DNA from: Sporosarcina ureae
Lineage (GTDB): Bacteria; Bacillota; Bacilli; Bacillales_A; Planococcaceae
Length of the DNA stretch: 64,000 nucleotides
NCBI RefSeq assembly: GCF_002082015.1
Contig: NZ_CP015109.1
Coordinates: 644,134 to 708,133 of the forward strand
Direction: 5' to 3'
The first letter of the stretch is position 1; each line of letters opens with the position of its first letter. The notes beneath the pieces were generated by a model that saw only the letters and a list, made by a program, of their open reading frames with translations, was not told where the DNA came from and did no database searches. A program made the translations under genes and the position numbers. Shown piece after piece: positions 16,793 to 26,330 of this stretch.

Positions 16793-17875
16793 TTAGATCG
16801 TTTGGTGTGTGTTCATGAAGCGAGTAATCTCTTCGTAGAACTTGTCAAACTGCTCAATATCCATTTGCTGTGCTGAATCCGATAATGCTACGGCTGGGTC
16901 CGGATGAACCTCTGCCATAACGCCGTCTGCTCCTACTGCAATTGCTGCTTTCGCTGTCGGAAGCAATAAATCTTTGCGGCCAGTGGAGTGTGTAACATCC
17001 ACGAATACCGGTAAGTGCGTTTCTTGCTTCAAGATGGGAACAGCAGAGATGTCCAGCGTGTTTCGAGTTGCCGTCTCATATGTACGAATTCCTCGCTCAC
17101 ATAACATAATCTCCGTATTACCTTTAGATATAATATATTCAGCTGCATTGACGAACTCAGAAATCGTTGCAGACATTCCACGCTTCAGAAGTACTGGCTT
17201 ATTGACCATTCCAGCTTCTTTCAGCAATTCAAAGTTCTGCATGTTACGTGCACCGATTTGGATCACATCGATGTATTCGAGTGCTTCCTCTAAGTGTGAT
17301 GGTGTAATGATTTCTGTGACGATCGAAAGCCCAGTTTCATCTGCAACTCGCTTGAGAATTTTTAAACCTTCCAAGCCTAAACCTTGGAAATCATATGGAG
17401 ATGTACGTGGCTTGTAAGCTCCCCCACGAATCATCGTTAATCCTTTTGCTTTGATTGACTTGGCTACTGCCAAAACCTGCTCGTAAGATTCTACTGCACA
17501 AGGTCCGAATACGAAAGAAGGATGTCCGTCTCCGATTTTATGGCCGTTTACATCAACAATCGTGTCTTCAGGCTTTTTAGTACGGGATACGAGCAATGCA
17601 TTCTTCTGCTCATCTTGCTGTACTTCAAGTGCTGACATGAAAATAGATTTAAATACTTGTTCAAGGATACCGTCTGGTAAAGGACCGTGATTTACCTTCT
17701 TCAAGACGTTGAGCATCTCGCGTTCGCGAACCGGATCGTATCTATTTACACCTTGCTTTTCTTTTAATTTACCAATTTCTTGGATAACGCCTGTACGTTC
17801 GTTGATCAATTTCAGAATATCTAAGTTCAACTGATCGATAGTACCTCTCAACTCACCTAAATCTTGCTTGCTCAT
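16793..17875 (-). CDS. aroA: Bifunctional chorismate mutase / DAHP synthase
   Basis: This enzyme catalyses the first step of the shikimate pathway (DAHP from PEP and erythrose 4-phosphate) and carries an N-terminal chorismate mutase domain (about 1-90) that acts as a feedback sensor. The DAHP synthase core shows G-P-C-A-V-E-S near 137, [11 protein letters not shown] near 162 and the H-S-T-G-R region. The start is the ATG at 17873-17875 with a GAGGAG site, giving 360 residues like B. subtilis AroA; the frame extends 14 codons upstream without support. The name follows B. subtilis usage and is not E. coli AroA (EPSP synthase). It sits directly upstream of ccpA on the same strand, separated by a terminator. 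Confidence 0.96.
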
Positions 17876-17951
17876 AATACCTGTCTCCTCCCCGTACATA
17901 TCTTCCTTTTCTAACACCGGAATCTATGGTACATTTTTATATAATAGACCT

Positions 17952-17980
17952 AGTATAATGAATACTCTTAGAAAAGTCAC
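17952..17980 (-). promoter_or_regulatory. Candidate promoter of aroA
   Basis: On the minus strand GTGACT (17975-17980) and TATACT (17952-17957) are 17 bp apart, about 75 nt upstream of the aroA start. Confidence 0.5.
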
Positions 17981-18040
17981 GCAATTTCATCGAATAAATA
18001 AATATTCACTATTTTCACATAGAAAAAACTTGAAAAGAGG

Positions 18041-20176
18041 TTGAAAATCCTGGTTACTAAGTTGTTCGCTCTTGATATCGGGACTCGCTCGGTTGTAGGC
18101 ATTATACTGGAAGAACAGAACGATTCATTCCATATTGTAGACTTGATTGCAAAAGAACATAAAGAGCGATCGATGATTGATGGACAAATACATAATATTT
18201 TAAGCGTCGCATCCATTATTCAAGAAATTAAAGAAGAATTGGAACAAATTCATGGACCTCTGCATCGCGTCAGTGTGGCAGCAGCGGGTCGTTCATTGAA
18301 AACAGCAGAAGGCACTGTGACGGTAGATATTTCAGATCGTACATTGATGTCAAAAGAAGATATCAACCGATTGGAATTAGTAGCTGTACAAAATGCACAT
18401 GAAAAATTACTATCTGCTCATCAATCGCAAGAGGATGATCACTATTATTGCGTTGGGTATTCTGTTTTATATTACAAATTACAAGACGAAAAGATTGGTA
18501 GTCTGATTGATCAAAAAGGGAAATCAGCTACCGTAGAAGTCATTGCTACATTTTTACCACGAGTGGTTGTAGAATCCTTACTCGCCGCGTTAAAGCGTGC
18601 CGATTTGGAAATGGAAGCTTTAACACTCGAGCCGATCGCTGCAATTCATGTACTCGTTCCCCCTTCCATGAGAAGATTGAATATCGCTTTGGTCGATATT
18701 GGAGCCGGCACGTCAGATATTGCCATTGTCAGGGATAATACCGTGACGGCATATGGAATGGTACCTGTTGCGGGAGATGAAATGACCGAAGCGCTAAGTG
18801 CACACTACTTGCTTGATTTTCCTATAGCTGAACAAATGAAACGACAAATTAATGATCAAGATGTATTGACAGTGCAGGATATTTTAGGATTCGAACAAGA
18901 AATTCCTTCAGAAGAAGTAATCGATGTCATCAGACCTTCAGTGAAACATGTAGCGTTATCCATCGCTACTGAAATCAAACGATTGAATCATCACTCTTCT
19001 CCGCAAGCCGTGATGATTGTTGGAGGCGGAGGATTAACGCCTACATTGACGAAAGAACTGAGCACGCAATTAGATCTTCCTGAAAACCGAGTAGCTATTC
19101 GCAGTCTCGATGCGCTTTCAGGAGTCACATTCTCTGATCAGATCGAAGCTTCTCCTGCACTCGTCACGCCGATCGGTATTGCGATTGCAGCGCAAAGAGC
19201 TCCGATTCATTACATTTCTTTAACAGTCAACGACCAATCCATTCGATTGTTCGAACTAAAAGAGCTGACAGTAGGCGATGCATTGCTTGCGGCCCGCATT
19301 ACCGCCCGTCAGTTATATGGTAAACCTGGACTTGCACTGACCGTAAAAGTAAATGGGCAGTGGAGAACACTTCCTGGCGGGCACGGCTCATCTACAACTA
19401 TCTTGTTAAACGGCACTGAGGCTAGCACTAAGGATCGCGTCGGCCATCTAGACAGTATTGAGCTATTGTTCGGTCAAGACGGCACAGACGCCTCAGCGAC
19501 AGTCAGAGACTTGGTAGACGCACCTGATTCCATTCGTTATCAATTGGACGGGGTAATTCAGACAGTTACTGGGCAAATTTTGCTAAACGGAAAGCCTGCT
19601 ACCTTGGATACTATCATTATGGATCGGGATGAACTGACAGTGAATCCGGCTAATAGAATAAAAGATGTGATCACGTCTCATACAAGTCCGCAGTCAGAGC
19701 CGTTCACCATTACATGGAACGGTACACCCCATCGCTTAAGAAGGGATGAGACGGTTTATATTGCAAACGGACAAGAAGTCTCCGACGATTATCGGATCCG
19801 CGCAAATGATATCATTGAAATGCATCAGCCTACTTTTCTTTCATTGAAGGAAATAGCAAAGGATTTAGAGATCATTCTAGAAGAACGCGCTGACGTTACG
19901 TTCAATGGAGAACCTGTGGGTATTACAAAACAACGAACTGCTACTTATGTAAACGGACAACTGGCGAACCTTGATTACCAAGTACAACCTAACGATCAGG
20001 TGGAGTTCAAGTCCTTACCCAACTCTCCTATACTATTCAGTGATATATTTTCATTCACCGACTTTTCATTACCTACTCAATCTACCGCCAACTATCGATT
20101 ATTGCGTAACGGTGATTCCATCGGCTTCAACGAATTCATCTTCGGTGGAGATCAACTAGAGATTATATTTGAATAA
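18041..20176 (+). CDS. FtsA-like actin-fold ATPase with long C-terminal extension
   Basis: The N-terminal 400 residues are an FtsA/PilM-type actin-fold domain: phosphate-1 loop F-A-L-D-I-G-T-R-S near 10, an inserted SHS2-type subdomain, phosphate-2 loop V-D-I-G-A-G-T-S-D near 218 and adenosine loop V-G-G-G-G-L-T near 327. FtsA tethers FtsZ to the membrane, but this protein lacks the usual C-terminal amphipathic helix. Instead it has about 300 residues of repeated small domains with recurring motifs such as L-L-N-G, V-Y-I-A-N-G-Q and Y-V-N-G-Q followed by D-x-I/V-E. It is therefore probably a paralogue with a separate envelope or division role. The start is uncertain: AAGAGG directly abuts the TTG at 18041, while an in-frame CTG at 18050 is better spaced and would begin just before the conserved domain. 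Confidence 0.8.
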   Translation: MKILVTKLFALDIGTRSVVGIILEEQNDSFHIVDLIAKEHKERSMIDGQIHNILSVASIIQEIKEELEQIHGPLHRVSVAAAGRSLKTAEGTVTVDISDRTLMSKEDINRLELVAVQNAHEKLLSAHQSQEDDHYYCVGYSVLYYKLQDEKIGSLIDQKGKSATVEVIATFLPRVVVESLLAALKRADLEMEALTLEPIAAIHVLVPPSMRRLNIALVDIGAGTSDIAIVRDNTVTAYGMVPVAGDEMTEALSAHYLLDFPIAEQMKRQINDQDVLTVQDILGFEQEIPSEEVIDVIRPSVKHVALSIATEIKRLNHHSSPQAVMIVGGGGLTPTLTKELSTQLDLPENRVAIRSLDALSGVTFSDQIEASPALVTPIGIAIAAQRAPIHYISLTVNDQSIRLFELKELTVGDALLAARITARQLYGKPGLALTVKVNGQWRTLPGGHGSSTTILLNGTEASTKDRVGHLDSIELLFGQDGTDASATVRDLVDAPDSIRYQLDGVIQTVTGQILLNGKPATLDTIIMDRDELTVNPANRIKDVITSHTSPQSEPFTITWNGTPHRLRRDETVYIANGQEVSDDYRIRANDIIEMHQPTFLSLKEIAKDLEIILEERADVTFNGEPVGITKQRTATYVNGQLANLDYQVQPNDQVEFKSLPNSPILFSDIFSFTDFSLPTQSTANYRLLRNGDSIGFNEFIFGGDQLEIIFE

Positions 20177-23132: not shown

Positions 23133-26210
<3,078 letters not shown>

Positions 26211-26330
26211 ATATATCACTCTTTTCATATCAATCATTTCATTTTAACAGGTTACTAGTAGGTAAATCAAACAGTTCTATGTACTTTCTGTATAAAATGA
26301 TGATTTGTAACCCTTTGTAACAATAATACA

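Follow-up and report, generated by a model that had tools for sequence, protein, structure and literature searches.

The window analyzed here, a stretch of 64,000 nucleotides of Sporosarcina ureae DNA, carries an open reading frame that ends at position 20176 (stop included) and would encode 711 amino acids if read from the TTG at 18041. This TTG directly abuts a Shine-Dalgarno-like AAAAGAGG (18033–18040, forward strand), which lies 9 bases 5' of a CTG at 18050–18052 on the same strand; because AAAAGAGG ends at 18040, leaving spacings of 0 and 9 bases, respectively, the CTG is the better start codon. Relatives of the gene have purine-rich stretches of the AAAGGA/AAAGGG type at a similar distance 5' of the start. 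We compared start codons at 77 of 81 fetched loci (L019, L026, L077, and L084 were dropped), which reduced to 56 distinct sequences with the S. ureae genome counted in. The start column holds CTG in 23 of these sequences (the S. ureae genome and 22 relatives), TTG in 11, ATG in six, GTG in three, and none of these codons in the other 13, of which five have a GTG one codon later and eight have an ATG farther upstream. Further, in eight of the 23 CTG sequences, the stretch from the in-frame stop upstream to the FALDIGTR motif contains no ATG, GTG, or TTG at all. An earlier reading made from the sequence alone (hereafter, the sequence-only reading) had favored CTG 18050 on account of the ribosome binding site, and both the spacing of AAAAGAGG and the 22 distinct relatives with the same CTG bear this out. 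By these comparisons, the predicted start of the gene is CTG 18050, and its coding sequence spans 18050–20176 on the forward strand (708 codons plus the stop). The conserved CTG offers a compact test of non-canonical initiation.

Divergently transcribed from the FtsA-like gene is a DAHP synthase/chorismate mutase gene, referred to here as aroA (16793–17917, reverse strand). This arrangement recurs: aroA is the immediate neighbor of the FtsA-like gene at 17 of 24 loci, mostly from Bacilli of different families (L117 yielded no target, and aroA does not directly adjoin the gene at the remaining six). An alignment of Planococcaceae upstream regions revealed a conserved intergenic element without assigned strand (17926–17990) that contains TATAAT-like boxes and GAAAAGTCACG, and that could constitute two overlapping divergent promoters. 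No match to a sigma-D-like promoter consensus was found in positions 17405–18672; as the same scan returned 62 matches at three or fewer mismatches across the whole window, versus 78 expected by chance, it has little power. Farther downstream, at 23133–26237, lies an FtsK/SpoIIIE-type gene, which we take to be SftA and whose product contains a very long acidic run of consecutive Glu residues.

Predicted structure of the FtsA-like protein

Residues 1–385 (18050–19204, forward strand) are predicted to form an actin-fold ATPase core of the FtsA type, as judged from fold alignment, motifs, and invariant columns. The nucleotide motifs LDIGTR, VDIGAGTSDIAI, VGGGG, and TPIGIA are kept in the members compared, and the secondary structure of the model places an FtsA-type 1C subdomain region at residues about 73–170 (18266–18559, forward strand; boundary estimated). 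In an AlphaFold2 model of the whole protein (pLDDT 84.8, pTM 0.59), the core aligned with V. maritimus FtsA (7q6f_A) across residues 3–384, with a Z-score of 37.0 and an rmsd of 2.2 over 360 aligned residues (VIA-align). By the same method PilM ranked second (Z up to 31.7) and MreB/Mbl scored about 24; the profile matches of the core were to FtsA, PilM, and MreB models. The sequence-only reading had described the protein as an FtsA paralog, and the model returned an FtsA-like core rather than an unrelated structure.

The rank of PilM among these folds raises the alternative that the protein belongs to a type IV pilus or a competence machine, as a cytoplasmic actin resembling PilM. It passes the Pfam PilM_2 model (42.2 versus a cut-off of 27 bits), and its best PDB sequence match is a PilM (2ych); however, it misses the NCBIfam PilM cut-off (63.5 versus 133), and no pilN- or pilO-like neighbor was recognized by eye in the loci lists. 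We consider this alternative very unlikely.

The core is followed by a tail of 323 residues (386–708; 19205–20173, forward strand) that, on the basis of the model, the repeats, and the fold matches, would comprise about five tandem beta-grasp (ubiquitin-like) units, all with approximate boundaries. Unit 1 (19205–19477) is modeled with a beta-beta-alpha-beta-beta ubiquitin-like fold. It aligned with SAMP1 (4hro_A) with a Z-score of 8.3 and an rmsd of 3.0 over 67 residues, a middling value with which other beta-grasp and transcobalamin-type domains tied within 1. Units 2 (19478–19645), 3 (19646–19825), and the short unit 5 (20015–20173) were delimited by eye from secondary structure and motif, and unit 4 (19826–20014), whose sequence resembles that of unit 3, from secondary structure; like unit 1, these lie on the forward strand. 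Units 2–5 appear beta-grasp-like solely by their predicted secondary structure and by the tandem ubiquitin chains that Foldseek matched to the tail. NG hairpins and D-x-I/V/L-E-like motifs occur about five times over along the tail, consistent with the extension of repeated small domains proposed in the sequence-only reading. For a test of these repeats, six pieces of the tail were cut by eye and compared in 15 pairs against 500 shuffles. Residues 549–598 and 609–660 aligned with a score of 72, which was matched by none of the 500 shuffles, and six of the 15 pairs, but not the other nine, gave p < 0.03 (uncorrected). At the level of sequence, one pair of units is clearly alike, and the others are only weakly so.

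When modeled alone, the tail had a pLDDT of 86.8 and a pTM of 0.51; the arrangement of domains in the models is uncertain, because pTM is low for both the whole protein (0.59) and the tail (0.51). A Foldseek search with the tail placed bacterial multi-ubiquitin proteins at the top (9d5a, E 1.4e-5; 9cd2, E 2.9e-5), followed at lower ranks by linear ubiquitin chains and the ubiquitin-like domains of USP7, then SAMP1 and ThiS. Only four matches had E values of 0.001 or less, and none in the PDB covered the whole tail well. Fold ranking with the full model is uninformative on the tail, because the core fills the list, and Pfam beta-grasp models scored below their cut-offs on the FtsA-like protein. 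No C-terminal diglycine for conjugation was found, the sequence ending in QLEIIFE. Among clostridial members (L132–L160), the reading frames range from about 580 to more than 750 amino acids, and many of the profile matches end near position 560–600; because frame and match lengths vary, these members probably do not all have the same number of beta-grasp units.

Relation to the divisome FtsA

The genome, which consists of one contig, encodes its genuine FtsA beside ftsZ (G000:C1:3020522-3021808), and the FtsA-like gene lies elsewhere. The sequence-only reading had anticipated that the genuine gene would adjoin ftsZ and that the present one would be a second copy, and the search of the genome for the division locus confirmed that another FtsA exists. 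Against the NCBIfam FtsA model (cut-off 175.85), the genuine FtsA scored 394.9 bits and the FtsA-like protein 85.4 bits; the latter did pass the Pfam FtsA model (38.1 versus a cut-off of 31.8).

Residues R300 and E303 in the 2B region of E. coli FtsA contact the tail of FtsZ. In an alignment of low identity, Arg is found at the position of R300 in none of 27 family members and in all four genuine FtsAs compared; similarly, the Glu at the position of E303 is missing in 26 of the 27 members and kept in all four FtsAs. One study locates the FtsZ contact of FtsA in the S12-S13 motifs of 2B (PMC4281207). The four genuine FtsAs have basic/hydrophobic C-terminal ends. A C-terminal amphipathic membrane helix was not found in the FtsA-like protein, whose model ends in a beta-strand, in agreement with the absence of the FtsA helix noted in the sequence-only reading.

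By the features tested (contact residues, helix, and a score of half the cut-off), the FtsA-like protein is not a divisome FtsA. A partnership with FtsZ was not taken as the default reading, because the contact residues are lost. The sequence-only reading had implied a link to division; this did not hold, as those residues are lost and the distribution of the gene follows that of flagella (see below). It might still be argued that the protein is a second FtsA of the divisome, acting, for instance, at the septum of vegetative or of sporulating cells, since FtsA is the closest fold and, in Planococcaceae, the gene lies near a Mur ligase gene and the FtsK/SpoIIIE-type gene. The loss of both contact residues, which all four genuine FtsAs keep, and a model without a membrane helix argue against such a role, which we regard as quite unlikely.

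In a separate observation, one Natroniella locus (L125; genome G527) carries an extra FtsA-like frame of 466 amino acids, in a genome that also encodes the large paralog and an FtsA of 433 amino acids.

Distribution and flagellar context

Relatives were sought with a profile of 27 family members in several genome draws, whose class and phylum names are inferred from the center genome of each. The nearest named relative found is S. ureae DSM 2281, with 92% protein identity. The gene is present in 104 of 299 genomes of Bacilli (53 of 118 genera), 46 of 196 genomes of Clostridia (the class of Clostridium tepidiprofundi), and two of 145 genomes of Omnitrophota (the phylum of an Omnitrophica genome). 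Within Planococcaceae, whose counts form part of those for Bacilli, 109 of 151 genomes have it; an order-level draw contained the same family only, and adds little. Rather than an oddity of one genome, the gene represents a family that extends through both Bacilli and Clostridia.

We compared this distribution with that of fliF. In Bacilli, fliF was found in all 104 genomes with the gene, versus 213 of 299 overall. In Clostridia, a fliF match with an E value of 1e-20 or better was found in all 46 positives, versus 79 of 196 genomes overall; applying the curated cut-off lowers these counts to 37 of 46 and 67 of 196 (12 of the 79 matches fall below this cut-off, nine of them in positives). Among Planococcaceae, fliF accompanies the gene in 108 of 109 positives (the remaining one, G107, is 81% complete), and the gene is missing from 16 of 17 fliF-negative genomes. 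Fisher values for the association (3e-20 in Bacilli, 1e-23 in Clostridia or 1e-13 with the cut-off, and 1.5e-9 in Planococcaceae) ignore descent and, because the genomes are phylogenetically non-independent, overstate the support and are descriptive only. Across the three groups in which fliF was scored, the gene is restricted to flagellated genomes, with the one incomplete exception.

About half of the flagellated genomes lack the gene (109 of 213 in Bacilli, 33 of 79 in Clostridia), as do three Sporosarcina (G021, G066, and G122) with a full fla/che operon, indicating that neither flagella nor chemotaxis as such depends on it. In Sporosarcina sp. JAI121 (L084:5007-5545), an internal deletion has left only the first 56 and the last 32 residues, between aroA and ytxH. 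This strain appears to be G122, whose flagellar operon contains che genes; the protein is therefore not required to keep flagella.

Sporulation was considered as the main link, as spoIVA is present in 103 of the 104 positive Bacilli (209 of 299 overall), a pattern that would also suit a divisome FtsA at the sporulation septum. When both traits are compared, however, this link is weaker than that to flagella, and was rejected: the gene occurs in none of 31 genomes that have spoIVA but not fliF, in 103 of 178 with both, and in one of 35 with fliF only. That one, the flagellated SpoIVA-negative genome G006, and the 106 of 209 SpoIVA-positive genomes without the gene, likewise speak against the septal role.

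The S. ureae flagellar operon includes cheB-cheA-cheW-cheC-cheD. We examined flagellar operons from Planococcaceae chosen across genera, covering 14 of the 108 flagellated positives and 15 of the 26 flagellated negatives. Considering the flagellar operon only, all 14 positives (14 genera) contain cheB-cheA-cheW-cheC-cheD, versus five of the 15 negatives (Fisher 2e-4); in the remaining 10 negatives, the operon has none of these five genes. The pattern is also seen within a genus, g11, where a che-bearing operon is present in the one positive examined and absent from all three negatives examined. The 10 che-less negatives (L185, L187, L189, L191, and L213–L218, from genera g2, g7, g11, and g12) have a diverged fla operon with a lower-scoring fliF, and this che-less operon looks like a replaced fla operon.

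We also inspected the neighborhoods of 30 loci (10 from the relative search, 19 hand-picked from the 46 Clostridia positives, and one from the Omnitrophota draw), 28 of which are from Clostridia and related Firmicutes, including Natroniella and a Syntrophomonadaceae bacterium. Both Omnitrophota copies lie inside a chemotaxis operon, between cheA/cheC and comFB-cheR (neighbors were named by Pfam in L081, and by likeness to L081 in L161); at the Bacilli and Clostridia loci looked at, the gene is not inside a flagellar or chemotaxis operon. In both of these operons, the gene directly 3' of the FtsA-like one (L081:7181-7444; L161) encodes ComFB, which is a c-di-GMP receptor in cyanobacteria. At nine of the 28 Clostridia and related Firmicutes loci, the next gene encodes a GG[DE]EF protein with five to eight hydrophobic stretches by a crude count; at two loci it overlaps the FtsA-like gene, by 22 and 38 bases, and Pfam GAF and GGDEF domains were found in the two next-gene proteins scanned. 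The other 19 loci have different next genes, mostly housekeeping-like (named by eye).

The tie of the gene to flagella and chemotaxis is a strong association in two classes, accompanied by two supporting neighbor patterns. This association might reflect nothing more than shared descent, if the protein were a general cytoskeletal or metabolic ATPase that, like flagella, is kept by larger free-living lineages, both being lost together on reduction. The conserved position beside aroA, the patchy distribution at the level of genera, and counts uncorrected for phylogeny speak for such a history; on the other hand, the nesting is repeated in Bacilli and Clostridia, the match extends within genus g11, and chemotaxis-operon and GGDEF neighbors occur in other groups. 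On balance, we judge this explanation unlikely.

Proposed role and known systems

The reading we prefer, to which we give an even chance of being correct, is that the gene encodes a dispensable cytoplasmic member of the FtsA/PilM superfamily, an actin-like ATPase with an accessory scaffolding role in the flagellar/chemotaxis apparatus. A role there rather than in division is indicated because, among the genomes searched, the gene is found almost only in flagellated ones. By analogy with FtsA and PilM, ATP binding may switch the conformation of the core or drive filament formation. The ubiquitin-like units would form an extended protein-binding rod, and the protein may use this rod to place chemosensory, flagellar, or c-di-GMP signaling proteins at the membrane, or to couple them there. 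Several observations run counter to this scaffold: (i) in Bacilli, the gene lies outside the fla/che operon, beside aroA, and no sigma-D-like promoter match precedes it; (ii) its nesting in sporulators is nearly as tight in Bacilli (103 of 104) as that in flagellated genomes; (iii) many flagellated genomes do without it; (iv) the fliF match falls short of the curated cut-off in nine of the 46 Clostridia positives, and fliF is missing from G107; and (v) most of the next genes at the 28 Clostridia and related Firmicutes loci (19) do not encode a GG[DE]EF protein.

More tentatively, and with somewhat less than an even chance, these genes may constitute an undescribed actin family dedicated to motility, in which an FtsA-fold ATPase bears a poly-ubiquitin-like arm, organizes chemosensory or flagellar complexes, and links these to the synthesis of c-di-GMP; this family would extend across Bacilli, Clostridia, and a few Omnitrophota, with a conserved CTG start in many Sporosarcina. 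Among the titles found in the open-licence PMC literature, none describes this family. If this proposal is right, the divisome and type IV pili are joined by a third machine that has recruited FtsA-type actins, and there is a function for a gene that seems to be a second FtsA in hundreds of motile Gram-positive genomes. It would also allow a direct test of what ubiquitin-like domains do when a chain of them is joined to an ATPase rather than conjugated.

Among known systems, FtsA (TIGR01174/PF14450; 7q6f, 7q6d, 3wqt, and 1e4g) shares with the present protein the actin fold over the whole core (Z 32–37) and the nucleotide motifs. Unlike FtsA, to which it is 12–19% identical, the protein has no Arg for FtsZ contact, no membrane helix, and a 323-residue beta-grasp tail, and it is not encoded beside ftsZ. 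PilM (TIGR01175/PF11104; 2ych and 5eou) belongs to the same superfamily, with Z-scores of 25–32 and the Pfam PilM_2 match in common; the differences are a score below the NCBIfam PilM cut-off and, by eye, no recognizable pilus genes nearby. To our knowledge, PilM has no beta-grasp tail. The modeled tail resembles in fold the multi-ubiquitin proteins (9d5a, 9cd2, and 8u38), with TM-scores of 0.15–0.24 for 9d5a and 9cd2, and, at the level of fold only, beta-grasp proteins of the ThiS/MoaD/SAMP type, as in the match of unit 1 to SAMP1 (Z 8.3). Unlike the proteins of both of these groups, it lacks a diglycine and is fused to an actin-like ATPase.
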